Assembly: GCF_003355515.1 (NCBI RefSeq)
Contig: NZ_CP031367.1
Coordinates: 1,798,001 to 1,862,000, forward strand
Direction: 5' to 3'
DNA: 64,000 bases
Origin: Aliarcobacter trophiarum LMG 25534
GTDB lineage: Bacteria > Campylobacterota > Campylobacteria > Campylobacterales > Arcobacteraceae
Below the pieces are notes generated by a model, which did no database searches, was not told where the DNA came from, and worked only from the letters and a program-made list of their open reading frames with translations. The translations under genes were made by a program, and so were the position numbers. Below are positions 1,424-25,274 of this stretch, piece by piece (within the stretch, counting starts at the first letter, position 1; each line of letters starts with the position of its first letter).

Positions 1424-2293
1424 CTATCTTTCATCTGGCATTAAGTGCATATTTTTTGCTATTTTAAATCCCAATTTTTCAAGAGCTTCAACATCATCTT
1501 TTGGAGTTTTTCCAGTAGTTGTAAGATAATCTCCTATTACAAAAGCATTTGCTCCTCGTTCAAAAATCTCATATTGTCTATCACCAAACATAAGCTCACG
1601 TCCACCAGCAACCATTATTTTATGTGCATTTGGTATCATTTTTCTTGCAAGAGTTATTAAATCAAAAGCTTGTTCTATATCTACTGTATTTTCAACAATA
1701 GGTAAAGCTTCATTTGGATGAAAAAAGTTTAAAGGTACATTCATAGGATCTAGTGAATTTATTGCTTCTAGCATAGAAATTCTATCTTCTTGAGTCTCCC
1801 CCATTCCAAAAATTCCACCACAAACTAGTTTTAATCCAGCCTCTTTTGCATTTAGACAAGTTTGGTATCTCTCATCCCAAGTATGAGTTGTACAAATTTG
1901 TGGATAGAAATCTCTTGAAGTTTCTAAATTGTGGTTGTAGTTATCAACTCCCGCTGCTTTTAACTCTTTTAATTGTTCTAAGCTTGCTATACCATTACAA
2001 GCAATTACTCTAAGTCCTAAATTTTCAGCCTTAACAGCTTTTGCAGCTTGTGCTATAAATTTTGTTTTCTTATCAGTAAGTCCAGCACCAGCAGTTACTA
2101 AACAAAATCCAACTGCTCCATTTGCTCTAGCAATTTTTGCCTCTTTTACAATCTGCTCTATATCTTTTTGTTTATATCTATCTATATTAGCTTTATATTT
2201 TACACTTTGTGTACAAAATTTACAATCTTCATTGCAAGTACCACTTTCAACATTGCAAATAGCACATAAAAAAATATCTTCATTATTACTCAT
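1424..2293 (-). CDS. bioB: biotin synthase
   Basis: Radical SAM enzyme that inserts sulfur into dethiobiotin, the last step of biotin synthesis. The radical SAM cluster motif CNEDCKFC is at residues 20-27. The downstream segments LVCGGIFGMGET and NVPLNFFHPNEALP match BioB barrel strands. At 289 residues it is somewhat shorter than the E. coli enzyme, as is usual for Campylobacterota. It is convergent with recA and shares its terminator region. A bioC-like gene lies far away at 42430-43122, so biotin genes are dispersed here. Confidence 0.95.
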   Translation of the reverse strand: MSNNEDIFLCAICNVESGTCNEDCKFCTQSVKYKANIDRYKQKDIEQIVKEAKIARANGAVGFCLVTAGAGLTDKKTKFIAQAAKAVKAENLGLRVIACNGIASLEQLKELKAAGVDNYNHNLETSRDFYPQICTTHTWDERYQTCLNAKEAGLKLVCGGIFGMGETQEDRISMLEAINSLDPMNVPLNFFHPNEALPIVENTVDIEQAFDLITLARKMIPNAHKIMVAGGRELMFGDRQYEIFERGANAFVIGDYLTTTGKTPKDDVEALEKLGFKIAKNMHLMPDER

Positions 2294-2373
2294 TTTTATA
2301 CTCTTCTTTCTTAAAATTACTTATATTTAAAATAAACATAGATTATATTACTATTTACTTTAATCTTAGTTTT

Positions 2374-4680: not shown

Positions 4681-4797
4681 TTAAATTGCCTTTTATTTAT
4701 AAAAGTTTGCATTTTATCATAAAATTTGTAAGGTTTTCTTAATAGCCTAAATATTTACATTTTATTAATTTTAATAATAGTGTATATAAAACATAAT

Positions 4798-5595
4798 CTA
4801 TTCAAAAATTATAATCTCAGTTTCCAACTCAATATTAAACTCTTTTTTTACTTTTTCTTTTGCTAAATTTATCAAAGTTGTTGCTTCATCAAATGTACCA
4901 GAGCCATGATTTACCAAAAAGTTTGCATGAGTATTTGAAAACTCCATATCTCCAACTCTATACCCTTTTAGCCCAACAGCTTCTATTAATCTTCCTGCAA
5001 AATCACCTTTTGGGTTTTTAAAACAACTTCCAGCACTAGCAATTTGTGGTTGATTATCTCTCATTTTTGTAAAATCATTTTGTCTATCTTGTGAAAAGCC
5101 TTTAGTTTTATAAAAAACTACTTCATAGATAATAGTATCAATTTTTGTCTGTCTATATGAAAAATCTATACTCTCTTTTTTAATATATCCATCTTTTGTC
5201 TTTATAGAGTCTATATAATTAAAAATTTCCCACTCTTTTAGACCTGCATTCATCTTTACTAAACCACCCAAATTTCCTGGTAATTTTGCTAAAAATTCTA
5301 AATTTGCAATATCATTTTTTCTTGTATATGTAAGTAGTTTTCCACTACTAGTGGCACAACCAACATATAATTTATCGTTTTCATCTTTTATATAATCAAA
5401 CTCTTCTCCCAAAATAGCAAACTTTTTTTCACAATTTGGAGAAATCAACAAATTATTCCCTCTTCCAATTATGTGAAAATCTGGATAATCACCTATTTCA
5501 TTGATAACTAAAACCTCTTTTACTCCTCCAATATGAATTGAAGAGTATCTTTTAAAATCTACTGTTTTATAGTAATTATCTATTTTCTCGCTCAT
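4798..5595 (-). CDS. murB: UDP-N-acetylenolpyruvoylglucosamine reductase
   Basis: FAD enzyme that reduces UDP-GlcNAc-enolpyruvate to UDP-MurNAc in peptidoglycan synthesis. FAD-binding signatures are IIGRGNNLLI and LPGNLGGLVKMNAG. The catalytic serine segment is ASAGSCFKNP, and the C-terminal glutamate lies in the NHGSGTFDEA region. At 265 residues it is a short MurB, the usual size in Campylobacterota. Its ATG overlaps the end of mqnD by four bases, so it is translated as part of the operon running from the AAA+ ATPase gene. Confidence 0.93.
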   Translation of the reverse strand: MSEKIDNYYKTVDFKRYSSIHIGGVKEVLVINEIGDYPDFHIIGRGNNLLISPNCEKKFAILGEEFDYIKDENDKLYVGCATSSGKLLTYTRKNDIANLEFLAKLPGNLGGLVKMNAGLKEWEIFNYIDSIKTKDGYIKKESIDFSYRQTKIDTIIYEVVFYKTKGFSQDRQNDFTKMRDNQPQIASAGSCFKNPKGDFAGRLIEAVGLKGYRVGDMEFSNTHANFLVNHGSGTFDEATTLINLAKEKVKKEFNIELETEIIIFE

Positions 5596-6470
5596 CTAGC
5601 TCTTAACTCTTCATATTCACTTGGGATTAAAAAATCTTCTGCTTTTATTAAATTTTGATAATGACCACTCTTATATCCCAACTCAAAAAGTTTATTTATG
5701 GCTTTATATTGAATATCACTTAGTTTTACAGAATTATCATTTGCATACAGATCCAAATATTTATCTAAAGTAGTAGCATCTACTCTAATTAAACCTTTTT
5801 CAAGTAGCATAGGAGCTAAAGTTTTCCTATTTTTATTTGCAACATCAACTGCTTTTATTAAAGCATCTTCATATTTTATTGCATCACTAAGTGGAATTGA
5901 TCTTCTTAAACACATTCCACCAAGAGGAAGTGGTAAATTCTCACCATCACAAAGCTCTTGCCAAATATCCCAAATCTCTCTTTCAACTTCTAACTCACTA
6001 CTATAAGTTAAAATAGACTCATGGATTAAAACTCCAGCATCAACAACTCCATCAAGCACAGCTTTTTCTATATCTAAAAAGTTCATATATGTAATTCTTG
6101 CATCTGGATATGCTATTTTAAAAAGAAGTGCATTTGTAGTAAACTCTCCACTAAGAGCAACTTTGAAATTTCTTTTTAGATTTACACCTTTTTTCTTAAT
6201 AAGTTTTGGACCATAACCTTCTCCAAAACTAACAGCTGTTTTAAGCAAGGCAAAATCATCTTTTACAAAAGGATATAGAGCAAAAGAGATAGCACAAATA
6301 TCGTAAACACCTTTTAGTGTTGCTTGGTTTAAAGTCTCTATATCTAAAGCGATATTATCAAATTTTGCATCTTTTATATCTATCCAACCAAATTTAATAG
6401 CATAATACATAAAAATATCATCTGCATCTGGAGAGTGCCCTACACTAATAGTTTTGCTAAGTTTCGTCAA
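5592..6470 (-). CDS. mqnD: 1,4-dihydroxy-6-naphthoate synthase (futalosine menaquinone pathway)
   Basis: MqnD converts cyclic de-hypoxanthine futalosine to 1,4-dihydroxy-6-naphthoate in menaquinone synthesis. Family signatures are GHSPDADDIFMYYAI, VETLN-like IETLNQATLKG, IHESILTY and NLPLPLGGMCLRR; the fold resembles periplasmic binding proteins. I place the start at the TTG at 6470, because AAAAGGAG sits seven bases upstream of it; the longer frame would begin inside the preceding gene without such a site. That ribosome site contains the stop codon of the upstream gene, indicating translational coupling. The pathway fits a Campylobacterota menaquinone user. Confidence 0.88.
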   Translation of the reverse strand: MTKLSKTISVGHSPDADDIFMYYAIKFGWIDIKDAKFDNIALDIETLNQATLKGVYDICAISFALYPFVKDDFALLKTAVSFGEGYGPKLIKKKGVNLKRNFKVALSGEFTTNALLFKIAYPDARITYMNFLDIEKAVLDGVVDAGVLIHESILTYSSELEVEREIWDIWQELCDGENLPLPLGGMCLRRSIPLSDAIKYEDALIKAVDVANKNRKTLAPMLLEKGLIRVDATTLDKYLDLYANDNSVKLSDIQYKAINKLFELGYKSGHYQNLIKAEDFLIPSEYEELRAR

Positions 6471-6474
6471 TTTC

Positions 6475-7236
6475 TTACTCCTTTTCCAAAGCAACTTTAC
6501 AAAAACTATAAAGGTTACTCTCTTTATTCGTTATTGCAATAGTTCCAAAAAGATTTTCATCTAAAATAATCTCTTTTTTATAGCTAATATTTTCTATTTT
6601 ATAGCTTACCATATCACCACTTTTTACCTTTGCAATATTTAAAAATGTTTGACTAGCTAAGATTTTTTCATTTAAAGAGCAATTTTTTGAAAAATATAGA
6701 ATAGTTCCATTGAAACTTTCCAAATCTTCTGGCTCTTCTAGATTCTTTTCTAAAGAGCTTTTATATGAGTTTTCTAGCTCTTTTGAAGAGAAAAATATAG
6801 AAAAATCTGTATATTTTTCTATACTTTTTACTAAAGTTAAAATATTTTCTATATTTTTGTGATTTAATAAATCATCTCCTAAAATCAAAGCTTTTTTACT
6901 AGCTTTCTCATATATAGAAAAAATATCTTCAAATTCATCTTCTCCTGCACTGCTTTCTGCTGATAAGTATCCAATATCTAGGTTTTCTAAATACTCTTTT
7001 ATACTATTATCTTTTTTTGCAAAAAAGTATAAAATAAGAGCCAAAATAGCCTCTTCGCTTCCTACTTCATATTTTATAAATTGCTTATATAACTCTTTTA
7101 ATATGTATTTATCTATTGGGTGCATAAAAATAAAGTTTGCCTCATTTTTACAAGCTTTTTCCAAACTATTTTTCAAATTTTCATCTTCAAAAAATGTACC
7201 AACACTTAAAATATAATCATATTTTTCTAAATCCAT
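6475..7236 (-). CDS. hypothetical protein resembling a NuoG-type C-terminal region
   Basis: A 253-residue acidic protein without signal peptide or membrane span. The opening DYILSVGTFFEDENLKNSLEKA and FIFMHPID resemble the molybdopterin-oxidoreductase-like part of NADH-quinone oxidoreductase subunit G, which in Campylobacterota is often diverged. I see no iron-sulfur cysteine motifs, so it is not a full NuoG. Its stop codon lies inside the ribosome site of mqnD, and it follows the AAA+ ATPase gene by 11 bases, so all three are co-expressed. The function is unknown and the NuoG resemblance is only an impression from short segments. Confidence 0.6.
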   Translation of the reverse strand: MDLEKYDYILSVGTFFEDENLKNSLEKACKNEANFIFMHPIDKYILKELYKQFIKYEVGSEEAILALILYFFAKKDNSIKEYLENLDIGYLSAESSAGEDEFEDIFSIYEKASKKALILGDDLLNHKNIENILTLVKSIEKYTDFSIFFSSKELENSYKSSLEKNLEEPEDLESFNGTILYFSKNCSLNEKILASQTFLNIAKVKSGDMVSYKIENISYKKEIILDENLFGTIAITNKESNLYSFCKVALEKE

Positions 7237-7247
7237 AAAAATCCTTT

Positions 7248-8981
7248 TTAAAAAAATCCAACTTTGTTTTCACTATCAAACTGCCCTTTTTTCTCTTTGC
7301 TTATCTGCTCTTCAAAATCTTTTAGAGTAAAAATTGCATTTTCACTAATTGCTAACTTATACGCAGTGTTTTTAATTACTAGCTCTATTTGACCACCAGT
7401 TAGTTCATATTTTGCAATTTTTTCAAAATCAAAATCTTTCTCAAGTGGAAGAGCAGGTGGTAAAAGTTTTTTCCAAAGTTCAACTCTTTGCTCTTTATTT
7501 GGTTTTACAAACTCTATTTTGTAGTTAAATCTTCTTGAAAAAGCTTTATCTAGATTTTCTAGCAAGTTTGTAGTAGCTATTAAAATACCATCAAATTTCT
7601 CTATCTGTTCCAAAAATATATTTTGCATCTGATTATGCATCTTATCTGCACTACTTCCTGCTCCACTACTTCTTGAACTTAAAAACTGGTCTGCTTCATT
7701 TAAAAGAAGCACTGGCTCAGTTTTTGTCTGCTCTTTTATTTCGTTGTATTTATCAAAAATGTTTCGCACATTTTTTTCACTCTCTCCAATGTACATAGAT
7801 AAAATTTTTGAACAATCAAAACTTAAAACCTCTTTCTTGAGAGATTTTGCTAATGCTAAAGCTGTAATAGTTTTACCAGTTCCAGCAACTCCATAGAAGA
7901 TTATTTTTGCATCTATTCCTCTTTTTTTATCTTTTATTCCCCAAGCTTTTAACCTATTTATTACACTTTTATCTACTTGTTTTAAAAGATTGTTTAAAGT
8001 CTCTTTTGTTTTTGGGTTCAAAACTACATCATCTAAATTTTTTGTTGTACTATTTAGTTCAAAAATCTCTTGCTCTTTTATAATTGTTTCTAGTTTTATT
8101 TTAGATACTGCTGAGCCTTTTTTGTTTGGATGAGAGATTTTATACAGTACTTCATCTGGAATATAAAAGTTTCTATTAATTCCACCAAAAGGAGTTAAAA
8201 CCTCATCATAATCTATTAAATTTTTAGATACCAAAGTAGAACTCTCTTCTAACAAGCTTCTATATTTTATCTTTTCATAATCATCATTTGACACAAGCTC
8301 AAGAAGATAGTTCATCTCTCTTAAAGTTCCATCTCCTCCACTATACTCCTCTTTTAAAAGAGCTAAAAATAGCACTTTTTCTTGCTCATTTAAACTATGT
8401 TCTTCAAAAAAATCTTCTAGCACAATTTTATTTGTAGTTGCACTAATTCTCTCTTTTATTCTATTTTCGACTAACATTAACTTGTTTTTTAATCGTGTAG
8501 AGCTAGGTGAATTAACATCAAAGTTTCTCTTTACACTATTTAGCTGTTGAGTAATATCGATTTTTAAAAACTGATCTTGAAGATATTCCAAATGGTCACT
8601 ATAATCTTTTATTTCAGGTAATACAAACTCACTAGTTCCACTTTCAAGCATCTTTAAATATGAACTTGAAAGCGCAACACTTGTATTTATTAATTCAAAC
8701 TTTGAAGCATCATTTAGCTTTACTTGATCAAATGCAATTTGAATAATCCAACCAAATTCTAGAAGTGATTTAATAATATTTAATTTTTCCAAGTGCTCAT
8801 ATTTTTCTATATTATAAAATTCTCTTAAAATATCAATAACACTTATTACATCTCTACCATTTAAATACTCTTTTGATAGGAATTGAAGGATTCTAGCCTC
8901 TTCTTCACTACACTTTAATTGATTGAAAAATCCACTCTTTTGTACATCTTTTGCTTTTAAAAAATCAATAACTTCTTGCAT
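7248..8981 (-). CDS. AAA+ family ATPase with helical N-terminal region
   Basis: A 577-residue soluble protein with a C-terminal AAA+ module. Walker A GVAGTGKT is near residues 365-372. The Walker B region reads VLLLNEADQF, with Asn where Asp is usual but the catalytic Glu kept. Sensor 1 is IATTNLLENLD, followed by arginine fingers AFSRRFNYKIEF. The N-terminal 300 residues are helical and of unknown fold. The module is close to the FtsH/CDC48/spastin class, suggesting remodelling of a protein complex, but the substrate cannot be inferred. It heads a minus-strand run with the NuoG-like gene, mqnD and murB. Confidence 0.85.
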   Translation of the reverse strand: MQEVIDFLKAKDVQKSGFFNQLKCSEEEARILQFLSKEYLNGRDVISVIDILREFYNIEKYEHLEKLNIIKSLLEFGWIIQIAFDQVKLNDASKFELINTSVALSSSYLKMLESGTSEFVLPEIKDYSDHLEYLQDQFLKIDITQQLNSVKRNFDVNSPSSTRLKNKLMLVENRIKERISATTNKIVLEDFFEEHSLNEQEKVLFLALLKEEYSGGDGTLREMNYLLELVSNDDYEKIKYRSLLEESSTLVSKNLIDYDEVLTPFGGINRNFYIPDEVLYKISHPNKKGSAVSKIKLETIIKEQEIFELNSTTKNLDDVVLNPKTKETLNNLLKQVDKSVINRLKAWGIKDKKRGIDAKIIFYGVAGTGKTITALALAKSLKKEVLSFDCSKILSMYIGESEKNVRNIFDKYNEIKEQTKTEPVLLLNEADQFLSSRSSGAGSSADKMHNQMQNIFLEQIEKFDGILIATTNLLENLDKAFSRRFNYKIEFVKPNKEQRVELWKKLLPPALPLEKDFDFEKIAKYELTGGQIELVIKNTAYKLAISENAIFTLKDFEEQISKEKKGQFDSENKVGFF

Positions 8982-13012: not shown

Positions 13013-14209
13013 TTAAAATTGAGTTTTCTCAATTCTAAAAACTTTACAAGTAAATATAAAAGCTAAAATACTCAAAATAAATAGTAATCCCAACCAATAA
13101 AAAATTGAAATCTCTACTAAATATCCTGCAACTAAAGTTGCAGTTGCTGGAAGTAAAAGCTGTAAAGAACCTAATAAAGCAGCAGTTGCACCTACTGATG
13201 TTTTTTGAGAAGACATTGCTATAGCGAATAAACTAGCTTCTGCTAAACCTAAGCCAAAAAATGAGATGAAAAATCCTATTACTATTCCATCCAAACCAAC
13301 TACAGATATATTTGAACTTATAAAACTTACTACTGAACCAAAAATTATAATAGCAGCTCCAAATATTGAGATTTGCTTCATATTTACTATTTGTAATAAT
13401 TTAGTAGATAGTAATGCACCAAATAAAAGGGCACTTCCAGTTGCTCCAAATACCAAACCAAACGTTTTTGAATCAAGATTATAAATCTCTTTGTAAGAGT
13501 ACGAAGCTCCAGAAATATAGCCAAAGATAAACATATACATTAAACAAGTTGCAAAAGCAGGAATTAAGAAGTTCATATTTTTTATAATATTGAAGTAAAT
13601 AATAAAGATATTTTTAAAATTAATTATAACTTTTTTTTCATCTTTTAATGTCTCTGGTAATATAAATAATGATAATATTAATACTAAAATAGCTAGTATA
13701 AATAGTACATAAAATACCGCCTTCCAACCAAAAACTTGATCAATATATCCACCTATTGCTGGAGCTAAAATAGGTGTAATTGCTCCAATAGTAATTAAAA
13801 TAGCAAATATTTTTGCTGCAACTTTTCCCTTTGATACATCTCTTACCATGCTAATTAAACAAATATATATTAAAGCAACACCTAATCCTTGAATAATCCT
13901 ATATAGTAAAAACAACTCTATATTTGATGAAGTAGTGATTGCAAAAGAGCATAATGCATATAAAGAGGTTCCTAAAATTAATGGTATTTTTCTTCCAAAA
14001 TAGTCAATTATTGGTCCAAAAAAAAGCTGACCAACTCCCATTGCAAATAGATAAAATGTAAGCGAAAGTTGTACCTTTGAGTAAGGAGTTTCAAAAAATG
14101 CTGCAATATCAGTCATTGATGCTAAATACATATCAACTGCCATATAACAAAGAATTTCGATTATGGCAATGGTCATAATAAATTTAAAACTAATTAATCT
14201 TCTTTTCAT
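13013..14209 (-). CDS. Bcr/CflA-type multidrug efflux MFS transporter
   Basis: Twelve-helix proton-driven drug exporter of the DHA1 Bcr/CflA subfamily, about 398 residues. The signature AVDMYLASMTDIAAFF in helix 1 and the loop GPIIDYFGRKIPLILG between helices 2 and 3 are characteristic. I use the ATG at 14209, because GGAAG lies five bases before it; the upstream TTG has no site. It is directly downstream, on the same strand, of a broken tetR-type gene, with an operator-like palindrome between them. Loss of that repressor may leave the pump constitutively expressed. Confidence 0.88.
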   Translation of the reverse strand: MKRRLISFKFIMTIAIIEILCYMAVDMYLASMTDIAAFFETPYSKVQLSLTFYLFAMGVGQLFFGPIIDYFGRKIPLILGTSLYALCSFAITTSSNIELFLLYRIIQGLGVALIYICLISMVRDVSKGKVAAKIFAILITIGAITPILAPAIGGYIDQVFGWKAVFYVLFILAILVLILSLFILPETLKDEKKVIINFKNIFIIYFNIIKNMNFLIPAFATCLMYMFIFGYISGASYSYKEIYNLDSKTFGLVFGATGSALLFGALLSTKLLQIVNMKQISIFGAAIIIFGSVVSFISSNISVVGLDGIVIGFFISFFGLGLAEASLFAIAMSSQKTSVGATAALLGSLQLLLPATATLVAGYLVEISIFYWLGLLFILSILAFIFTCKVFRIEKTQF

Positions 14210-14230
14210 AAAATCTTCCAAAATATATTA

Positions 14231-14271: not shown

Positions 14272-14805
14272 TTAAAGTAAAAAAGTTTTTAAATCTTCTA
14301 AAATCTCTTTTCGTTCTTCTTCTGATAGCTTTATATACTTTAAAGATAATAAAGCAAATAGTGCTTCTGAAAATAAAAATGCTAACCTTAATTTTTTTCC
14401 TTCGTCATTATTTGTATCTATAGAGTTTAAAGAGATTCTATACCAATCTTGGAACTCTTTTAAAATAGATTCATCTTGCAAAAGCATAGTTACCATTTTT
14501 GATGATTTATTAAATTGTTCATTGTTTTTATACTTAGATATATATTCAATATGAGCTTTAATTTTTGCATCTTTAGAAATATCACCTTTGGATAGAAGTT
14601 CTATTTGGTGATTATACTATTCTTCGTTTTTTGCTGAAACTGCCTTTATCATTCCTTCTTTATTTCCAAAAGTATATTGGACTCCACCTATTGAGATATT
14701 TGCTTTAGCCGCAACTTTTCTAATACTTAAACCTAAAAGTCCTTCATTTAAAATAATATCTTCAATAACACTTATTAGATGATTTTTATCTATTTTAGTT
14801 GCCAA
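14272..14805 (-). pseudogene. TetR family regulator interrupted by an in-frame stop
   Basis: The N-terminal part, from a TTG start at 14805 with AGGA seven bases upstream, is a TetR helix-turn-helix (LSIRKVAAKANISIGGVQYTFGNKEGM). Codon 63 is TAG at 14617-14619. The same frame then stays open for 114 more codons to 14272, with typical TetR ligand-domain helices (DEGKKLRLAFLFSEALFALLSL). No shift of frame is needed to join them, so this is a nonsense change, not a frameshift. The intact protein would be about 177 residues, a normal TetR length. It precedes the Bcr/CflA pump on the same strand and presumably once repressed it. Confidence 0.82.
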
Positions 14806-14841
14806 ATTATTTTCCTATTTGATACTCTATTTAATATTATT

Positions 14842-14960
14842 TGTGAGATTCAAAATAAATTGATAATGATTTTTTCATAATATTAAATACCTTTTTTTAG
14901 GAATCTTATAATAGTTTTTATTAAAACTAATTTTATATATGTACAATAAAAATTGACAAT
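14842..14960 (+). repeat. left end of the Tn7-like element with two spaced transposase-site repeats
   Basis: The first site, about 14850-14869, contains AAATTGATAATGA, a 13-base exact inverted match to 23351-23363 at the right edge. The second site, 14939-14960, matches the third right-end repeat (minus strand of 23353-23374) at 20 of 22 positions. Both sites point inward, as TnsB sites do. Confidence 0.6.
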
Positions 14961-14961
14961 A

Positions 14962-15090
14962 TTATTCAACATAAGTCTTTAACTGATTAAAAAAGTATCT
15001 ACACTCTTGGGGGCATTCCCAAATATTGAAATTATCCAAGTCATGATGTCTAGTATAAAAGCTGAAGGATATTTGCAATTGTATTAAAAT
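14962..15090 (-). other. short open frame, possible gene remnant
   Basis: The stretch 14806-15203 holds the transposon left end and no full gene. Within it the minus strand is open for 42 codons with a protein-like composition: SFYTRHHDLDNFNIWECPQE and then CRYFFNQLKTYVE before the stop. It has no plausible start, which suggests the C-terminal remnant of a deleted gene. I do not recognise the family. The rest of the gap is plain AT-rich sequence. Confidence 0.25.
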
Positions 15091-15203
15091 TTATATAAAA
15101 TGAAAATCTCTAACATTTAATACTACACAAATATATATTGTTAAATCCTTTCATAAGAGCCTATTATTTATTACCATTCTATCAACAAATACATAAATAT
15201 TCT

Positions 15204-15226
15204 AGTAACGATAATAAAGAATTATA
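15204..15226 (+). repeat. dif-like recombination site S1
   Basis: Outer arm TAACGATAA, centre TAAAGAA, inner arm TTAT. The 20 bases TAACGATAATAAAGAATTAT (15206-15225) recur exactly, inverted, at 17381-17400. The site lies 20 bases beyond the stop of the DUF262-HNH gene and bounds the first restriction module. Confidence 0.65.
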
Positions 15227-15245
15227 AATAATCTATACTTTCTTA

Positions 15246-16349
15246 TTACTTTCCAGACTTTGTTCTATTACAATCTTTACAAAGCATTTGACAATTTTCT
15301 TCAATTGTTTTTCCTCCTTCATGCCAAGGCTTAATATGGTCACCTTCCATTTGAGAGATTGGAAAAGTATTATGACACTTAGCACATATTCCATCTTGTA
15401 GTTCATAAATCTTTTGTTTAATTGCATCTGAAAATGCACGCAATGAAAGATATCGTTCATTACGAGTTAACACATAAGGATAAATACCACTTTTTTTCTC
15501 AACATCATCATCCAATATTAATTGAGCAATCTCTACTTCTAATTCATGTGTATCATAAAGATTTTCTTTATAAGTATTATATAAAAAGCCCCAATCAACA
15601 TTTTTCATAAATTTTTCTCTTTTTTTTGTAAATGTTGATTCTATCCACGATATGACACTTTGAAAATATATCCATAATGCACTTGCATTAGGATCATGTT
15701 GATGATCTTGCATATATTGGTCTATATTATTATTACTTATCCATTTTATGGCTGTTTCTAAATATTCTTGTCTATTTACTTTACCTGATAGATAACTATT
15801 GGCTATTGCATTTGCGGGACAATTGCTTTTACTAAAATATCTTTTTGCATCAGTAATCCAAGAACCAGAAAAAACAGCATTTCTAAGTTCTTGACTAGAT
15901 AATCTTTCTCCTGCAATATTAATAGTTTCAAACCATTTTAATTTTTCACTATTTTTACCACTACATAAATATATCATGAGTTTATACTCTAAAATCTTTT
16001 CTTGTTCATCTTCTTGAAGGTTATGAAAGGCTCTTGGTTGAGAAAAATCACCAATATTCGCAGAGAAATCTCCTTCTACATATTGACATATAGAAATAGT
16101 ACGTTGTTGACCATCAATTACTTCATAGTCTCCATCTTCTTTAACTGCCCAATACATTACATTTAATGGAAAATCTTTAGTAATTGTATCAATTACTGCA
16201 TCTCTTTGCTTATCTCCATAAACAAACTCTCTCTGATATGGAGGACGAATATCTAATTTTCCATTGTAACTAAAGACCCCATTCTCTTCATTATCTTGAT
16301 ATCCTTCAATTAATTCACGAATTGTTATCTCTTTAAGTTCAATTTTCAT
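15246..16349 (-). CDS. DUF262-HNH restriction nuclease
   Basis: A 367-residue predicted endonuclease. The N-terminal DUF262 (ParB-like, GmrS-type) domain shows PPYQREFVYGDKQRDAVIDT and the DGQQR motif near residue 78. This domain couples nucleotide binding to cleavage in GmrSD, SspE and BrxU. The C-terminus is an HNH nuclease: CAKCHNTF, MEGDHIKPWHEGG, then ENCQMLCKDCNRTKSGK, with zinc cysteine pairs and the catalytic DH. Its ATG overlaps the methylase stop by four bases (ATGA), so both are made from one message. Pairing with a cognate-type methylase suggests a restriction enzyme blocked by adenine methylation; a modification-dependent role is the alternative. Confidence 0.82.
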   Translation of the reverse strand: MKIELKEITIRELIEGYQDNEENGVFSYNGKLDIRPPYQREFVYGDKQRDAVIDTITKDFPLNVMYWAVKEDGDYEVIDGQQRTISICQYVEGDFSANIGDFSQPRAFHNLQEDEQEKILEYKLMIYLCSGKNSEKLKWFETINIAGERLSSQELRNAVFSGSWITDAKRYFSKSNCPANAIANSYLSGKVNRQEYLETAIKWISNNNIDQYMQDHQHDPNASALWIYFQSVISWIESTFTKKREKFMKNVDWGFLYNTYKENLYDTHELEVEIAQLILDDDVEKKSGIYPYVLTRNERYLSLRAFSDAIKQKIYELQDGICAKCHNTFPISQMEGDHIKPWHEGGKTIEENCQMLCKDCNRTKSGK

Positions 16350-17365
16350 AATTTTTTATTCCTTATTAATATTCTTGCATATTTCTGTTTTCCATTAATA
16401 ATTCCACGATGTCTTTTCTTATCATTAGTTCGTAGTAATTCTACTTCTTTTGAGCTATCTCCACTGTGTGTTTGCCCTACAATTTCAAATTGTTCTGGAT
16501 TATATTTACTCAAGAAAGTTACTGGAACACCCATAACTCCACCATAATCGATAGGAATCTCTGCTACTTTATCAATATTAATTGCATTATAATTTTCATA
16601 GGTTGGATATTCTTCATTTTTATATAATTTATATAATATTAAATCCTCATGTCTTTTGGCTATATCTAAATTTGTATACCAACATATATTGCCTAAACTT
16701 CTCCATTTTTGACCTGTTTCATCTTCTCTATATCTTGTTTCACGCGCTTGATAGTGATTAGGAACTTTAAATTCCATATCTCCACTTCTATTGCCCAACC
16801 AAATTTTGTTTTCTTTAATTAGAGAAAACGTCTCTTTAGTTGTCGCAGCATTTTGATTTCCAATAATTATAAATTTTTTATCATATTCTATGAGTTGAGC
16901 AATATATTCACGAAATAGAGAAAAGGGAGGGTTTGTAACTACTATATCAGCCTGTTTTAGTAATTCAATACTTTCTTCACTTCTAAAATCTCCATCTCCT
17001 TCTAAATAGTTCACTCCTATTTCTTGTATATCTGGAATACTATTACCATTTTTATCACCATAGTACTCTAAATAAATTGCCTGCTTAGAATTTCCTTGAG
17101 TAAAAAGATCCATATTGTTATTTTGGAAACATGTCGTTATCAGTTTTTTTAATCCTAATTTTTCAAAATTATATGAAAAATAGTGAAAAAAGTTACTAAC
17201 TCTAGGATCATCACAATTACAATAAATTATTTTATCTTTAAAATGTTTTTTATAATGCTTTAATTCTTTTTCTATATCAGTTAATTGAGTATAATACTCA
17301 TCCTCTTTATTTATTTTTGCTTTATGTAAATTTTTATTTAAATCTTTTTTATTTAGCTTTGTCAT
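16346..17365 (-). CDS. M.EcoRI-like adenine-specific DNA methyltransferase
   Basis: Strong resemblance to the EcoRI methylase along its whole length: YCNCDDPRVSNFF, GLKKLI, GDGDFRS.ESI.LLK, the catalytic DIVVTNPPFSLFREY (NPPF), LIKENKIWLG, and NYNAIN...IP.DY.GVMGVP.TF. It transfers methyl groups to adenine N6, in M.EcoRI within GAATTC; the target here is not known. The second ATG (17365) is favoured because AAGGA lies five bases before it. The partner downstream is a DUF262-HNH protein, not an EcoRI-type nuclease. A TAGAAT -10 element at 17405-17410 (minus strand) lies beyond site S2, so the gene's promoter is probably outside the module. Confidence 0.9.
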   Translation of the reverse strand: MTKLNKKDLNKNLHKAKINKEDEYYTQLTDIEKELKHYKKHFKDKIIYCNCDDPRVSNFFHYFSYNFEKLGLKKLITTCFQNNNMDLFTQGNSKQAIYLEYYGDKNGNSIPDIQEIGVNYLEGDGDFRSEESIELLKQADIVVTNPPFSLFREYIAQLIEYDKKFIIIGNQNAATTKETFSLIKENKIWLGNRSGDMEFKVPNHYQARETRYREDETGQKWRSLGNICWYTNLDIAKRHEDLILYKLYKNEEYPTYENYNAINIDKVAEIPIDYGGVMGVPVTFLSKYNPEQFEIVGQTHSGDSSKEVELLRTNDKKRHRGIINGKQKYARILIRNKKL

Positions 17366-17373
17366 CATTTTCC

Positions 17374-17403
17374 TTAAAGGATAATTCTTTATTATCGTTA
17401 ATT
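17374..17403 (-). repeat. dif-like recombination site S2
   Basis: Carries ATAATTCTTTATTATCGTTA (17381-17400), the exact reverse complement of 20 bases in S1. Its outer arm ATTATCGTTAATT (17391-17403) is repeated, inverted, at 18476-18488 in S3, so the integrase gene is framed by a 13-bp inverted repeat. The site sits in the methylase leader, next to the ribosome site. Confidence 0.65.
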
Positions 17404-17506
17404 GATTCTATCAAAATAATTCTAAAATAATATATAAAACACTCATACTTCATAGCATTAAAAGTAACTAATAACTAAACTCCCACTTTTAATTTAAAGG
17501 AGTTAC

Positions 17507-18433
17507 ATGGTATTACCAAAAGCAATTGAAAAATTTAGATTTCATTGTGTTTATGAGAAGAATCTAAGTTTAAAAACTATGCATGCTTACGATGCAGATC
17601 TAAAACAATTTTTAGAGAAATTTAAAAATTATAAAATAAATGAAATATCAAAATTTGATCTAAAAGATTATGTGGAGAGTTTATTTAACCATTCTTACAA
17701 AATAAAAACTATAAAACGAAAAATAGCAGTATTAAAAACTTTTTTTAATTACTTAGAATTTGATGAAATTTTAGAAATAAATCCATTTAGAAAATTAAGA
17801 CTATCTCTTAAGGAACCTAAATTACTACCTAAAACACTAGATATTAAAGAAATTAAAACTATTTTAAAATATCTATATAATTTAAAACATATTTATGATA
17901 AATCCACTTTTAGATACAAACTTCTAGTAAGAGATATAGTATCAATTGAAATCTTATTTTCAACTGGTATAAGAGTATCTGAGCTATCCAATTTAAAAAA
18001 AAATGAAATAAATATCAAACAGGGAATCGTAAAAATATTTGGAAAAGGCTCAAAAGAAAGAATTATTCAAATTTGTGATAAAGAAGTTTTAAATCTATTA
18101 AAAGAGTATTCTATTCTATTTAATTTAAATAGCAATCCAAATAATCATTTTTTACTAAATAGATTAAACAATAATTTTTCGGAGCAATCTATTAGAGCTA
18201 TGATTCATAAATATGAACAAAAATTAGGTTTACGACAAATTACTCCCCATATGTTTAGGCATTCTTTTGCAACACTGCTATTAGAAGAAGGTGTAGATGT
18301 AAGATATATACAAAATATGTTAGGGCATTCTTCAATATCAACTACGCAAATATATACAAAAGTAAATACAAAACATCAAAGAAAACTGCTTAGTTCAAAA
18401 CATCCAAGGAGAACCTTTAGCTTGTCTTTATAA
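17507..18433 (+). CDS. Xer-like tyrosine recombinase/integrase
   Basis: A 308-residue recombinase with an N-terminal SAM-like core-binding domain (about 1-90) and a C-terminal catalytic domain. Catalytic residues are visible: R in FSTGIRVSELSNLKK, K in GKGSKER, H-x-x-R in PHMFRHSFATLL, H in MLGHSSISTTQ, and the nucleophilic Tyr in IYT. The layout is closer to XerC/XerD than to phage integrases. AAAGGAG precedes the ATG. It lies between two restriction modules, each bounded by inverted dif-like sites, which are its likely substrates. It could also be the housekeeping Xer recombinase, but its position inside an accessory island argues against that. Confidence 0.88.
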   Translation: MVLPKAIEKFRFHCVYEKNLSLKTMHAYDADLKQFLEKFKNYKINEISKFDLKDYVESLFNHSYKIKTIKRKIAVLKTFFNYLEFDEILEINPFRKLRLSLKEPKLLPKTLDIKEIKTILKYLYNLKHIYDKSTFRYKLLVRDIVSIEILFSTGIRVSELSNLKKNEINIKQGIVKIFGKGSKERIIQICDKEVLNLLKEYSILFNLNSNPNNHFLLNRLNNNFSEQSIRAMIHKYEQKLGLRQITPHMFRHSFATLLLEEGVDVRYIQNMLGHSSISTTQIYTKVNTKHQRKLLSSKHPRRTFSLSL

Positions 18434-18436
18434 TTA

Positions 18437-18460
18437 AAACTAGACTATAAAGTCTAGTTT
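18437..18460 (+). terminator. intrinsic terminator of the integrase gene
   Basis: Perfect 10-bp stem AAACTAGACT / AGTCTAGTTT with loop ATAA, three bases after the stop codon. It isolates the second restriction module from integrase transcription. Confidence 0.75.
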
Positions 18461-18475
18461 ATAGTCAAAGATTTA

Positions 18476-18505
18476 AATTAACGATAATTTAAGATTATCA
18501 TTAGT
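18476..18505 (+). repeat. dif-like recombination site S3
   Basis: Left arm AATTAACGATAA, centre TTTAAGA, right arm TTATCATTAGT. The 19 bases GATAATTTAAGATTATCAT (18483-18501) recur inverted at 21561-21579 (S4). The centre differs from that of S1/S2. The site lies 20 bases before the nuclease-methylase gene. Confidence 0.65.
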
Positions 18506-18525
18506 CTAATATAAAGAAAATAATA

Positions 18526-20481
18526 ATGGCAAAAAAAGAAGTAGTAACAGACCTTTGGGTTTATGAATTATTAAAAGAAGCAAATATAAACTTAGAGCCA
18601 CAAGGTAGCACAGTTTTAGAAATAGATGAGGCTTTAAAAACAGCTTCAAAAAGTGGTTCAGGAAAGGTTGGTTTTCCTGAATATGTAGGAGTTGTAAAAG
18701 ATTTTTTACTTGTTATTGAAAACAAAGCTTCAATCTCAAAACATATAAAACTAGATGATAATGAATTAATTAGCAAAGAGCCAAAAGATATTAAAGATTT
18801 TGCCGTAAATGGTGCATTGTTTTATGGGCAACATTTAGCAAAAAATACAACATATAAAAAAGTTTTAGCTTTTGGAATTTCAGGAAATGAAAAAAAGCAT
18901 AAAATAAGCCCAATTTTTATAGATGAAACAGAATTTTATAGAGAATTGCCTGAACTAGAGAGTTTTATATCTTTCAATGAAAAAAATATTGAAGAGTATT
19001 ATATAAGGGAGATATTAAAAGAAGAAACAAATAAAGAAAAAGAGTTAGCAGAAATTTTAAAAGATGCTGCAACACTCCACAAAGATTTAAGAAATTATGG
19101 AAATTTAGAAGATAAACAAAAACCTCTGTTGGTTTCAGGTATATTATTGGCTCTTAGAGAAGTTGAATTTAAAGGCTTTAATATAGATGATTTAATAGGC
19201 GATGATATAAACACCGACGGACAAAAAATCTATGAAGCTATTGAAAAAAATCTTCAAAGAGCAAAAGTATCTCCTGAAGTTAAAAAAGATAAACTCTTAA
19301 GCCAATTTGCACTAATAAAAGATACAAAAATATTAAATGAGATAAATAAAAATTTAGGGAAAACTCCACTAAAACACTATGCAGAATTTTTAAATGATAA
19401 AATATATAAAAGCATAAAATACACTAAATCATCAGAAGATTATTTAGGAAGATTTTATGGCGAGTTTATGAGTTATAGTGGTGGAGATGGACAAAATTTA
19501 GGAATAGTTCTAACTCCAAAACATATTACTGATTTATTTTGTGATTTAGTAGATATAAAATACAATGATATAGTGCTAGACCCAACTTGTGGAACTGGTG
19601 GTTTTCTTGTAGCTTCTATGTATCATATGTTGGAAAAATTAGAAGAAGAGAAAAATAAATCTGATATTACAGATAGCAAATATCAAAATTTACAAGCAAG
19701 TATTAGACAAAAACAGCTTCACGGTTTTGAGCTGCAACCTTATATGTTTACAATAGCAACTACAAATATGATTTTAAGAGGAGATGGAAAAAGTACACTT
19801 TTTAATGATGATTTTCTAGCACAAAATCCAGCTAAACTACAACTAAATCAAGCAACAATTGGAATGATAAATCCCCCTTATTCTCAAGGCTCAAAGCAAA
19901 ATACAAATTTATATGAGATAAATTTTATAAGCCATTTATTAGATAGTTTACTAGAGGGAGGAAGATGTATAGCTATTATTCCTCAATCTTCAATGACAGG
20001 AAAAACAAAAGAAGAGCAAGAGATAAAAGAAAATATACTTAAAAAACATACTTTAGAGGGTGTAATAACTCTAAACAAAGATACCTTTTATGGTGTTGGA
20101 GTAATGCCTTGTATAGCTATTTTCACAGCTGGAGAGTCACATAAAAAAGATAAAGAGTGTAAATTTATAGATTTTAGAGAAGATGGCTATAAAATAGCTG
20201 CACATATTGGGCTTATGGAAACAGAAGCAGCAAAAGATAAAAAACAGCATTTATTAGATGTTTGGTTTGATAAAATGAAAGCCGAAACAAAATTTTGTGT
20301 AAAAACAACGATAGAGCCTAGCGATGAATGGCTACATAGTTTTTACTATTTTAATGATGAAATCCCAACGGCAGAGGATTTTGAAAAAACTATTGGAAAT
20401 TATCTAACTTTTGAGTTTTCGATGATTATGCAAAATAGAGAGTATCTTTTTGAAGAGGAAACAAAAAATGTTAAATCTTGA
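18526..20481 (+). CDS. BcgI-like fused nuclease-adenine methylase (RM subunit)
   Basis: A 651-residue restriction-modification subunit. The N-terminus is an HsdR_N-like PD-(D/E)XK nuclease: FPEYVGVVKDFLLVIENKAS with D59, E65 and K67. The rest is an HsdM-type N6-adenine methylase: SAM motif VLDPTCGTGGFLV near residue 351 and catalytic NPPYSQG near 448. A nuclease fused to HsdM plus a separate specificity protein matches the Type IIB BcgI design (A subunit about 637 residues), which cuts on both sides of its site. No separate HsdR is present. The site S3 lies just upstream, and the ribosome site is weak. Confidence 0.82.
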   Translation: MAKKEVVTDLWVYELLKEANINLEPQGSTVLEIDEALKTASKSGSGKVGFPEYVGVVKDFLLVIENKASISKHIKLDDNELISKEPKDIKDFAVNGALFYGQHLAKNTTYKKVLAFGISGNEKKHKISPIFIDETEFYRELPELESFISFNEKNIEEYYIREILKEETNKEKELAEILKDAATLHKDLRNYGNLEDKQKPLLVSGILLALREVEFKGFNIDDLIGDDINTDGQKIYEAIEKNLQRAKVSPEVKKDKLLSQFALIKDTKILNEINKNLGKTPLKHYAEFLNDKIYKSIKYTKSSEDYLGRFYGEFMSYSGGDGQNLGIVLTPKHITDLFCDLVDIKYNDIVLDPTCGTGGFLVASMYHMLEKLEEEKNKSDITDSKYQNLQASIRQKQLHGFELQPYMFTIATTNMILRGDGKSTLFNDDFLAQNPAKLQLNQATIGMINPPYSQGSKQNTNLYEINFISHLLDSLLEGGRCIAIIPQSSMTGKTKEEQEIKENILKKHTLEGVITLNKDTFYGVGVMPCIAIFTAGESHKKDKECKFIDFREDGYKIAAHIGLMETEAAKDKKQHLLDVWFDKMKAETKFCVKTTIEPSDEWLHSFYYFNDEIPTAEDFEKTIGNYLTFEFSMIMQNREYLFEEETKNVKS

Positions 20482-21625
20482 ATATAAAGAGTGGGATAAA
20501 TTTAAGTTTATAGAGATATTTAATATTAAAAATGGATTTTACAATAAAAAACCAAATATAGAAGCAATAGGAAATATACCTTTTATTGGGGCAGTGGATA
20601 ATTCTAATGGTATAACAGAGTTTTATACTTTAAAAAATATTGAGAATAGCAGTAAAACTGGAGATAAGAACAATGTTAATTTGGAAAAGAAACTTTTTCA
20701 ATCTAATGCAATTTGTGTTACAAATAATGGTTCGGTAGGATATGCTTATTACCAAAAAAGTAAATTTACTTGTAGCCACGATGTAAATCCTTTATACCTT
20801 AAGAATAAAATATTAAATCAATCTATTGCAATGTTTTTAATAACTTGTATTGAAAAACAGAGAGTATGTTTTGAATATTCGAGAAAATGGCGACCAAAGA
20901 GAATGATAAAATCTAATATTCTCTTACCAATAGAAGAACCTGAAAAACCTAATTTTGAATATATGGAAGAGTATTCAAAATCTATCATAAATAGCAAAAC
21001 TGAAAAATATAAACAATATGCACAAAAAGTTTTAAATAGTATTGAATATAAAAATATAGAAACACTAGAAAACAAAGAGTGGGAAGATTTTTTTCTAATA
21101 GATATTTTTACTACTATTCAAAGAGGAAAAAGATTAACAAAACAAAATCAAACAAAAGGAAATATACCTTATATTTCATCAACAAGTTTAAATAATGGTG
21201 TAGATAATTTTATAGGAAATAAAACAGATGTTAGGATTTTTTCTGATTGTTTAACGATTGCAAATAGTGGAAGTGTAGGAGCTAGTTTTTATCAACCTTA
21301 CAATTTTGTAGGAAGCGACCATATAACACATCTAAAAAAAGAGAATATGAATAAGTATGTATATATATTTATCTCAACTTTAACAAATAGATTTTCAGAA
21401 AAGTATAATTTTAATAGAGAAATTAATGATAAAAGGATTTCAAGAGAAAAAATAATGCTTCCAATAAATGATAGAAAAGAGCCTGATTTTCAATATATGG
21501 AGCAATATATGAAAAATCTAACATATAAAAAAGTTAATCAATATTTGTCATTTATAAATTATGATAATCTTAAATTATCATTAGTTTATTTTATACAAAG
21601 ACTCATAAATCTAATATTAGTTTAA
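20468..21625 (+). CDS. Type I/IIB specificity subunit (HsdS-like)
   Basis: A DNA-recognition subunit of about 385 residues with two target-recognition domains. Each starts WDKFKFIEIFNI or WEDFFLIDIFTT and ends in a matching helix (PNFEYMEEYSKSI and PDFQYMEQYMKNL). Segments such as ICVTNNGSVGYAYYQ and LTIANSGSVGASFYQ are typical of HsdS. The ATG at 20468 is chosen because GAGG lies nine bases upstream; it overlaps the end of the nuclease-methylase gene by 14 bases. The last residues (YDNLKLSLVYF onward) are encoded by dif-like site S4 and sequence beyond it, so the C-terminal tail depends on where the module is inserted. Confidence 0.83.
   Translation: MLNLEYKEWDKFKFIEIFNIKNGFYNKKPNIEAIGNIPFIGAVDNSNGITEFYTLKNIENSSKTGDKNNVNLEKKLFQSNAICVTNNGSVGYAYYQKSKFTCSHDVNPLYLKNKILNQSIAMFLITCIEKQRVCFEYSRKWRPKRMIKSNILLPIEEPEKPNFEYMEEYSKSIINSKTEKYKQYAQKVLNSIEYKNIETLENKEWEDFFLIDIFTTIQRGKRLTKQNQTKGNIPYISSTSLNNGVDNFIGNKTDVRIFSDCLTIANSGSVGASFYQPYNFVGSDHITHLKKENMNKYVYIFISTLTNRFSEKYNFNREINDKRISREKIMLPINDRKEPDFQYMEQYMKNLTYKKVNQYLSFINYDNLKLSLVYFIQRLINLILV
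21561..21585 (-). repeat. dif-like recombination site S4
   Basis: The minus strand of 21561-21579 equals the 19-base core of S3 (18483-18501), with the centre in opposite orientation. The right arm TTATCATTAGT is also shared directly with S3. It lies within the 3' end of the specificity gene. A 13-base direct repeat TAAAGAAAATAAT follows both S3 (18512-18524) and S4 (21623-21635). Confidence 0.6.
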
Positions 21626-21634
21626 AGAAAATAA

Positions 21635-23335
21635 TCAAATAATTTTATTCAATAATCCAGCATACCAATTAGCAAGCTGGATTTCATTTAAATTTTCATT
21701 TCTCTCATGGTTCTTTTTAGTAAATTTAGGGTTAGTTTGAGAATATCTTTTTAGCATATTATCTATTCCACTATCTTCTTTAAGATAAAGATTTATAAAA
21801 AAATCAAAATTACTATTTTGTATTTGTGAATTAGATATTATTACCCAAGTTGAACAAGCAGAATAAGTATTATTTTCTAATTCTAATAATCCTACATAAG
21901 AATTCTCATATTTAAACGTTGCTGTTAAATATTGTCTAGGTCTTTTTTTTATTTTACATTTTGGATTGATTTTTGTTTCATCATCTTTAAGTGTATATTG
22001 AGGTAAATCTTTTTTCCCATTTAAATGAAAATCTTTTATATCAGTACGTTGCTGTAAAAAGTTTATATATTGATTGAAAACTACAAAATTATCTATTTCA
22101 GTTAAAGGTTTAGATGAAGATTGTTTTAAAAATTCACTTGAAATAACAACTTTTCTAATAGTTTTATTTCCTTTAGAAGATGACTCAGTTAAACTTTGAT
22201 CAGTTATATCATCGGTTTGTTGCTCTTTATAAATTTTTAGTAAATCTTCTAAAATATCTCTTGATGAAGATTCTTCATCTACAGGAATATTATTTAAACT
22301 ACCACAACTTTTTTTTCTATCTTTTTGATGATAAGTTTGAGTATTTCTTTTACTTGCATGTGTTATTTTTAAAACTTCAGATGTTTCATTTGGGATGTCT
22401 TTTTCTACTTTTGGAAGATTCTCTAAATTTCCTAAATTTAAAATAACTTTATTTTTTTCTATAATTTTTGTTAATTTATCAAAACCTATATCTGAATAAT
22501 CATTTGTAATTTCATGAATAAAGTAATACTTTTCATTCGTTTCTTTATTTGTAACAAGCGAACTTCTAGTGTCAATTTGAAATTCTTCTTTTGTTGGGAA
22601 ATTAAATTTCAAATGCATTTTATACATATCATCATCAAAATTGTTTTCTTGCATAAATTTCAAATAGTTATGGATATATCCAGATACATTATCAAACTCT
22701 TTAATTGCATTTTTTTGACAAGCAAATCTATGTATGAAAGCTGCATCTTCATCTGTTCGATAAGTTGGTAAAACTATTTTTGCATTGGCTCTATCATCTT
22801 CACACATAATGTATAATTCATTTAAAGTAGAGTCTAGGACAGCTTCTCTTAATTGTGAAAATCTAAAATAATAATATATTCCTATAGTAAAGTGAGGAAT
22901 GATTATTTTAATATCATCTTGCTCAACTAAATAACAATTAATATTTTTTGCATCTTTAAGAAGTTTATAGTTCCATCCTAATAAAGTTCCTATACTTTCC
23001 TGTTCTAGGATATCTTTTAGTTTTTTTTCATTATTTTTATTAATAAATTTTGTATTTATTTTAAAGTTTTTATCTACAATATCTTTATTTAAATATTTTT
23101 CAGTTTTTTCACCATTTTTAAATGATTTACAAAGAGGATAGTGAGTAAATAAAAGTTCTGGAGATACTCTGTAAGTAAATATTTGATTTTTAGACATATT
23201 TTTAACAACAACTTCGTAGTAACTATTTCCAAAACTCTCTTCATCAAGTGCTATTCTTAGAGGCAATAAGAATTGAAAAGTATCATTTGGGTTATCTTTC
23301 ATAAACTCTGGAATGATACTTCTCTTCTTAGCCAT
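21635..23335 (-). CDS. TnsE-like transposition protein (candidate)
   Basis: A 566-residue soluble protein. Three regions recall TnsE of Tn7: an N-terminal segment IPHFTIGIYYYFRFSQLREA, a middle YYFIHEITNDYSDIGF before a low-complexity Ser/Thr/Glu linker, and a C-terminal domain with FVVFNQYINFL and KRPRQYLTATFKYENSYVGL followed by LELEN. In Tn7, TnsE directs TnsABC to replicating DNA and conjugal plasmids. Its start faces the tandem repeats at the element's right end, and it reads inward, as tns genes do. No other transposition gene is nearby, so it would act with proteins supplied from elsewhere or be a relic. The family call rests on my reading of distant similarity. Confidence 0.55.
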   Translation of the reverse strand: MAKKRSIIPEFMKDNPNDTFQFLLPLRIALDEESFGNSYYEVVVKNMSKNQIFTYRVSPELLFTHYPLCKSFKNGEKTEKYLNKDIVDKNFKINTKFINKNNEKKLKDILEQESIGTLLGWNYKLLKDAKNINCYLVEQDDIKIIIPHFTIGIYYYFRFSQLREAVLDSTLNELYIMCEDDRANAKIVLPTYRTDEDAAFIHRFACQKNAIKEFDNVSGYIHNYLKFMQENNFDDDMYKMHLKFNFPTKEEFQIDTRSSLVTNKETNEKYYFIHEITNDYSDIGFDKLTKIIEKNKVILNLGNLENLPKVEKDIPNETSEVLKITHASKRNTQTYHQKDRKKSCGSLNNIPVDEESSSRDILEDLLKIYKEQQTDDITDQSLTESSSKGNKTIRKVVISSEFLKQSSSKPLTEIDNFVVFNQYINFLQQRTDIKDFHLNGKKDLPQYTLKDDETKINPKCKIKKRPRQYLTATFKYENSYVGLLELENNTYSACSTWVIISNSQIQNSNFDFFINLYLKEDSGIDNMLKRYSQTNPKFTKKNHERNENLNEIQLANWYAGLLNKII

Positions 23336-23348
23336 ATCTAATTTATCC

Positions 23349-23420
23349 TCTCATTATCAATTTTTAATGTACATATTATCACTATTTAATGTCCATTCTC
23401 ATTGTTTAATGTTTGTGACA
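23349..23420 (-). repeat. right end of the Tn7-like element with three tandem repeats
   Basis: Read on the minus strand from 23420: TGTCACAA, then three units each starting ACATTAAA at spacings of 20 and 22 bases, each followed by a TGAnAAT core (TGAGAATG, TGATAATA, TGATAATG). The last two units match at 19 of 22 positions. Tandem 22-bp sites are what the right end of Tn7 has. The block overlaps the mnmG stop codon and the leader of the TnsE-like gene, so regulatory repeats are an alternative reading. Confidence 0.6.
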
Positions 23421-25274
23421 ATTATTATTCAAATTCAAATGTATAATATCAATAGCAGCAGGAGTTATCCCAGAAATTAAACTTGCATTATAAAGTGTTG
23501 GTGGTTGGTTTTTCTCTAACTTTTCTATAACTTCATTTGAAAGTCCTGGAAGTCCTTTATAACAAAAATTTTCAGGAATTCTTAGTTTAAGCATCTTCTT
23601 CATTTTTTCTATCTGTTTTTGCTGTTTTTGAATATATCGATAATATTTTGCTTCTATAATAATTTGTTCTTTTAGATACAAATCAAGCTCTTTTAAACTA
23701 GGAACCAAAAAATCAAGTTTTTCTATATCTATAGTATTTCTTCCTATTAAATCTATTAAAAGAACTTTATCATTTATCTTTTCTTCACCAATAGAGTCCA
23801 AAAGTTCCAAAGTCTCTTTTTTTGAAGTTATCCAGCTATTTGCCATAAACTCTACTGCATCTTCTAAAACTTTTCTCTTATTTTCAACATTTGTAAAAGT
23901 TTCAATATCTATAAGTCCTAACTCGTACCCATATTTTGAGAGTCTAATATCAGCATTTTCTTCTCTTAAAAGAAGTCTATACTCAGCACGGCTTGTAAAC
24001 ATTCTATATGGCTCAGAAGTTCCTTTTGTAACTAAATCATCTATTAAAACACCAATATATGCCTCATCTCTTCTTAAAATAAATGGCTCTTTACCATCGA
24101 TTGCCAAACTAGCATTTATACTTGCCATCAATCCTTGAGCAGCTGCCTCTTCATAACCAGTTGTTGCATTTATTTGCCCTGCATGATAAAGATTATTTAA
24201 TTTTTTTGTTTCAAGTGTATGTTTTAACTCTGTTGGGTCAACATAATCATACTCAATAGCATATCCATATCTTATAACTCTTGCATTTTCTAAACCTTTA
24301 ACTGAAGCTATCATCTTTTTTTGTATTTCAATAGGCAAAGAACTTGACATTCCATTTATATAGTATTCTGTACATTTTGCTGTTTGTGGCTCCAAAAATA
24401 GTTGATGTCTCTCTCTTTCACTAAATCTTTTTACCTTATCTTCAATACTAGGGCAATATCTTGGACCTAAACCCTCTATTTGCCCTGTATAAATTGGGGC
24501 TCTATGAAAATTTTGTGAAATAATCTCGTGAGTATCAAGGTTTGTATAAGTTACATAACAAGGATATTGTGTTGGGTTAAAACTCTTTTTATCTGTTCTA
24601 AATGAAAATGGTGTTGGTTTTATATCTCCTCCATGCATATCCATAACTGAAAAATCGATGCTGTTTGCATCTATTCTTGATGGTGTTCCAGTTTTCAGTC
24701 TTCCTACATTTAAACCCAACTCTTTTAGCTGAATTGATAAAGTGCTAGATGGCAACTCCCAAGCACGACCAGCACTATAAGTATTTTCTCCAATATGGAT
24801 TAATCCTCTCATAAATGTTCCAACTGTAAGAATAGTTTTCTTTGACCTAAACTCCTCTCCTAGTTTTGTCTTTACTCCTAAAACTTCACTATTTTCAACT
24901 ATTAAATAACTCACCTCATCTTGATAAATATCTAAATTTGGTGTAGAGTGACAAACTTTTCTCATATACTCTTTGTAGAAATCCATATCAATTTGAGCTC
25001 GTGTACCTTGAACAGCAGCACCTTTTGAGTCATTTAATACTCTAAACTGAATTCCAGTTGCATCTGTACAAAGTCCCATTTCACCACCTAAGGCATCTAA
25101 CTCTTTTACCAAATGACCTTTTGCTAAACCTCCAATAGCTGGATTACAACTAGCAGCTCCTATTTGTTCAACAAGCATAGTTATTAATAGTGTTTTTTTT
25201 CCTAATCTTGCACCTGCTAATGCTGCTTCAATTCCAGCATGACCAGCTCCAACAACGATAATATCGTATTGCAT
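23406..25274 (-). CDS. mnmG: tRNA uridine-5-carboxymethylaminomethyl modification enzyme MnmG (GidA)
   Basis: FAD-binding partner of MnmE that installs the cmnm5 group on wobble uridine of certain tRNAs. The FAD motif [17 protein letters not shown] is at residues 8-24, [20 protein letters not shown] follows, and the C-terminus shows [15 protein letters not shown] and [10 protein letters not shown]-type [15 protein letters not shown]. The 622-residue length is normal. The last residues (CHKH and the stop) are encoded by the end of the Tn7-like element, which apparently inserted in the final codons and supplied a new stop without damaging the conserved protein. Confidence 0.95.

Follow-up and report, generated by a model that had tools for sequence, protein, structure and literature searches.

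A protein of 566 residues that resembles TnsE is encoded beside what looks like a transposon end, in the window analysed here (the whole stretch of 64,000 nucleotides), and the question that this raises is what such a protein is doing there on its own. A sequence-only reading of the locus had found no TnsABCD, and had suggested that the protein might recruit the transposase of another element, or might control the neighbouring restriction genes. In Tn7, TnsE acts through the sliding clamp to guide TnsABC-mediated transposition into DNA that is being replicated (PMC5371812). The protein described here would, by analogy, be expected to act in the same way.

Sequence comparison and structure prediction identify the protein as a genuine, though highly divergent, TnsE. 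The predicted C-terminal domain (residues 412–566) matches the TnsE crystal structures 9d5l, 5d17 and 5d16 with Z scores of 13.8, 12.2 and 12.0 over 142–145 residues, the next unrelated fold scoring 5.7; Foldseek gives a probability of 1.00 for the TnsE fold, and the C-terminal domain structures of TnsE are matched end to end. The pLDDT of this domain is mostly 65–93, while the N-terminal half is modelled at low confidence, and the claim about the fold is therefore limited to the C-terminal domain, where no unrelated fold was obtained. An hhalign comparison with Tn7-type TnsE (a reference alignment of five proteins, headed by the TnsE of plasmid R721) covers both halves, pairing residues 129–563 with 102–529 over 388 columns (E 7.9e-6, probability 84%), and the invariant positions common to both include P147/P121, H543/H510 and W557/W527. 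The likeness to TnsE that had been read from the letters is thus borne out.

Scans of the protein against Pfam and NCBIfam gave no family match, TnsE_C included, a PADLOC scan gave nothing useful, and searching the PDB with a sequence profile produced no match. A search with TnsE_C had been proposed as a check; it failed for the protein itself but matched two of its 14 relatives weakly (best E 6e-4), with a further homolog, L062, at 23.1 bits under a cut-off of 26.7. Profile comparison with the TnsE_C-positive L055 gives E 2e-14. The subfamily thus escapes the curated profiles, and the number of TnsE proteins has probably been underestimated.

The gene lies directly 3' of mnmG, and a tandem array of three repeats, each about 20 bp long, separates the two. 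The features of the locus are as follows.

14836–14841, no strand: flank ATTATT, a direct repeat of 23421–23426, imperfect target duplication
14842–14962, plus: far transposon end, TGTGAGATTC and a pair of TnsB-like sites spaced by 93 bp, in inverted orientation to the mnmG end
15205–15229, plus: dif-like site 1
15246–16349, minus: cargo, type II restriction enzyme with GmrSD_N and HNH domains
16346–17368, minus: cargo, EcoRI-family adenine methyltransferase
17377–17401, minus: dif-like site 2
17507–18433, plus: Xer-family tyrosine recombinase, 308 aa
18478–18502, plus: dif-like site 3
18526–20481, plus: cargo, type IIG restriction enzyme-methyltransferase
20450–21625, plus: cargo, specificity subunit of a restriction-modification system
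21560–21584, minus: dif-like site 4, adjoining the 3' end of tnsE
21635–23335, minus: tnsE homolog, 566 aa, intact, ATG start (alignment, profile, predicted fold, dN/dS)
23351–23420, minus: mnmG-proximal transposon end, TGTCACAAAC and three TnsB-like sites at a spacing of 20–22 bp
23406–25274, minus: mnmG, attachment-site gene on the same strand as tnsE, its last codons provided by the transposon end

The element is bounded by an array of TnsB sites at each end and runs from 14842 to 23420 (8579 bp, 8.6 kb). A TnsB-site matrix, trained on the mnmG-side ends of relatives together with the three sites of the window itself, gives five hits of at least 16 in the 64-kb window, and none in six shuffled windows. 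Three of these (23351–23411, scores 18–24) lie between the mnmG stop codon and the tnsE reading frame and read inward, so that the frame does indeed read inward from tandem end repeats, as had been noted. The other two, at 14851 and 14944, are in the opposite orientation, and their spacing of 93 bp is within the 92–104 bp seen in relatives. The sequence TGT CAC AAA CAT TAA, which belongs to the transposon end, encodes the final four residues and the stop of MnmG. It is plausible that the far flank, AAT AAT ATT AAA TAG as read by eye, would restore the mnmG tail and its stop.

Both junctions are flanked by the 6-bp sequence AATAAT within an AAT-rich tract, the duplication usual in the family being 5 bp. 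Because it is one base too long and lies in such a tract, the repeat is weak evidence, and neither proves nor refutes a single insertion. Just beyond the far end, a TetR-like regulator (14280–14830, minus strand) appears, by eye, to be broken by an in-frame stop, and it adjoins a Bcr/CflA-type efflux gene at 13013–14221.

Within the 64-kb window there is no tnsA, tnsB, tnsC or tniQ, and the element is therefore a remnant, not an autonomous member of its family. The absence of TnsABCD reported earlier thus holds for this element but not for the genome, which contains a complete Tn7-like element of 22 kb in comM/yifB (L002 13522 to L003 15641, or G000:C1 about 548523–570641).

The solitary gene is explained by its relatives, which carry tnsE at the same place in complete transposons. 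A homolog is present in 20 of 104 Arcobacteraceae genomes, and 20–30 kb around each was scanned for core genes and TnsB-like sites. Both subgroups of these TnsE proteins, that of the window (51–86% identical to it) and a second (about 27%), are located at mnmG. In 15 loci tnsE occurs together with tnsA, tnsB, tnsC and tniQ. At mnmG, 11 of these belong to the window's subgroup (tnsE being broken in one of them, G080) and three to the second; the remaining one (G013b) lies elsewhere. The complete elements at mnmG are inserted into its 3' end. Next to mnmG come the first end, tnsE and cargo; tniQ-tnsC-tnsB-tnsA follow, oppositely oriented, and in some elements further cargo precedes the far end. 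Exact 5-bp target duplications were found by script for seven elements, and by reading for an eighth (G013a, ATATT). In genomes free of the element the mnmG tail is intact, and rejoining the flanks of the element in G021 gives the empty site of G026. The cargo beside tnsE differs widely from one relative to the next. G021 was considered for a time as another element without tnsABC, and was dropped when tnsABC was located further along a longer stretch. A 71% identical TnsE homolog lies on a contig of 4.2 kb (L070) which ends before any far end.

The two ends of the window element resemble different relatives. The mnmG end is 90–95% identical to those of G011, G003 and G008, and tnsE is closest to that of G011 (86% identical); the far end is 79% identical to G016, 76% to G013a and 51% to G011, a comparison that involves few sequences. 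As the ends come from different subgroups, recombination with another element at mnmG is the most likely route, and the comparison suggests that what is left in the window is the remnant of a recombinational deletion. Tandem insertions at mnmG are seen in G013a, G080 and G053/G056, so that several elements do meet in one cell. Products of decay are also common at this site: a bare end scar in G008, stubs of tnsE in G003, G100, G062 and G077, and in G082 a tnsE with stops, tnsB and tnsA not being found in its contig. The mnmG 3' ends of G009, G006 and G008 (L144, L163, L149) have element-free tails resembling coding scars of former transposon ends, either as CQKQ and CKKR tails or as a full bare end.

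On the basis of these observations, the locus is most likely a decayed, dead remnant of a Tn7-like element at mnmG with a Tn6022-like layout, which has kept both ends, tnsE and cargo and has lost its core. In complete members of the family, tnsE is placed immediately inside the end next to mnmG and is directed inward, with the core toward the other end in the opposite orientation. Insertion at mnmG would probably be determined by TniQ, and TnsE would be expected to guide the transposon into DNA under replication, as in plasmids during transfer. The block tniQ-tnsC-tnsB-tnsA would have been lost from the window copy, most likely by recombination with another element at a heavily re-used site, leaving a non-autonomous copy. 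We infer the succession of these steps, the part played by recombination and the inactivity of the copy today.

Within tnsE itself no decay is visible, since the gene is intact and its dN/dS on the window branch (about 0.2–0.25) is barely higher than that of G011 (about 0.2). With dN about 0.04 and dS about 0.17, again like G011, either the loss of the core is recent or some constraint persists. A reading of tnsE as a frameshifted gene or pseudogene was ruled out by the open frame and the dN/dS of about 0.2.

An intact gene under purifying selection beside restriction-modification genes might suggest that TnsE has taken on a new role, such as the regulation of these genes, as the sequence-only reading had proposed. 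We regard this as highly improbable: no feature of the sequence ties tnsE to the restriction genes, and in every relative tnsE adjoins quite different cargo, always together with the transposition core. An ordinary element minus tnsABC-tniQ is the simpler account, because the complete relatives all carry the core at the opposite end. The other earlier proposal, that TnsE recruits a transposase from another element in the genome, would have to draw on the comM/yifB element. With tnsA, tnsB, tnsC, two tniQ and a GTGGA 5-bp duplication, that element is complete, and it holds the sole TnsB and TnsC of the whole genome. However, these are only 38% and 28% identical to their counterparts in the mnmG family, its terminal repeats (TAATGCTACT) are unlike the TnsB-like sites of the window, and it has its own TnsE of 598 aa, whose similarity to the window TnsE, compared alone, is below significance. 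The search of the genome for a TnsB able to act on the window ends therefore led only to a distant protein whose own ends are different, which makes recruitment in trans within the genome unlikely, and there is scarcely any chance that the comM/yifB element supplies a transposase redirected by the window TnsE.

A somewhat better case, though still an improbable one, can be made for a living non-autonomous transposon, mobilised in trans by TnsABC and TniQ of a related complete element, for instance one carried on a plasmid. Both arrays of TnsB sites and an intact, conserved tnsE are still there, many members of the family have complete relatives of the element, and the tandem insertions bring elements together. 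Against this, the genome has neither a cognate TnsB nor a second copy of the window's end, no other element that lacks tnsABC and retains an intact tnsE and both ends was found among the 104 genomes, and the ends in the window come from two subgroups. We therefore keep to the remnant reading, in which TnsE is probably without a working partner in the host cell, and would be left over from a recent loss and not a regulator with a new role.

The layout is closest in kind to that of Tn6022-like elements, which have remote TnsEs near one end, away from the core genes (Faure et al. 2023, PMC10293859). As there, tnsE lies close to one end and on the strand opposite to tnsA, tnsB, tnsC and tniQ, at a long distance from them, and the protein diverges strongly from Tn7 TnsE within the same fold. 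Unlike there, the attachment site is mnmG and not comM, no tnsF is seen adjacent to tnsE, and the window copy is without its entire core. With Tn7 itself (the R721 copy, NC_002525) the family shares the C-terminal fold of TnsE, short tandem TnsB sites at one end with spaced sites at the other, and 5-bp duplications, which here are found in the complete relatives. In contrast, Tn7 has tnsABCDE as a single operon and inserts by glmS, and its TnsE is only about 14% identical.

The cargo region has an organisation of its own. Four dif-like sites of the pattern TTAACGATAA-N7-TTATC-like lie in the element, and mark the borders of its modules: restriction enzyme and methyltransferase, Xer recombinase, type IIG enzyme and specificity subunit, and tnsE. 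The R, HxxR, H and Y catalytic motifs of the Xer-family protein appear, by eye, to be present. At up to one mismatch there are no further copies of the sites in the 1.9-Mb genome, and with two mismatches allowed the hits do not rise above background. The nearest Xer genes are in G016 (92%) and G056 (74%), and the Xer region as a whole is 90% identical to that of G016. These two relatives show the same pattern: a matrix trained on the window sites only has its best matches in G016 at two sites on either side of a gene for 1299 aa, and in G056 at three sites, which border the Xer gene and a gene for 1306 aa. Gene modules bordered by dif-like sites are also a feature of the Xer-site-flanked p-dif modules of Acinetobacter; the putative sites described here differ in being inside a Tn7-like element with its own Xer recombinase and in having a spacer of 7 bp. 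An Xer recombinase with dif-like sites that would delimit two restriction-modification cassettes may perhaps be newer than the finding of TnsE.

That Xer recombination deleted the core is an appealing idea, but it was set aside, since none of the complete relatives was seen to have its core flanked on both sides by dif-like sites. A more elaborate proposal, to which we give limited credence, is a mobile defence island in two layers. An element homing to mnmG would carry its own Xer recombinase and dif-like sites, at which whole restriction-modification cassettes would be exchanged in the stretch from tnsE to the far end; the same exchange would have removed the core, and a related TnsABC could still move the island. 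The pattern of cassettes suggests a testable route for the exchange of defence genes among transposons.

The use of mnmG as an attachment site for Tn7-like elements seems to be unreported, neither mnmG nor gidA being mentioned in the two main Tn7 surveys that were searched. The results extend the range of TnsE-bearing Tn7-like elements to the mnmG site in the Arcobacteraceae, and show that elements both stack and decay there, leaving coding scars at the C-terminus of MnmG. A compact relative also occurs away from mnmG, on contig C3 of G013 (L050), where tnsE (2050–3759) faces tniQ-tnsC-tnsB-tnsA (3765–8343) beside a phosphoesterase-like gene.
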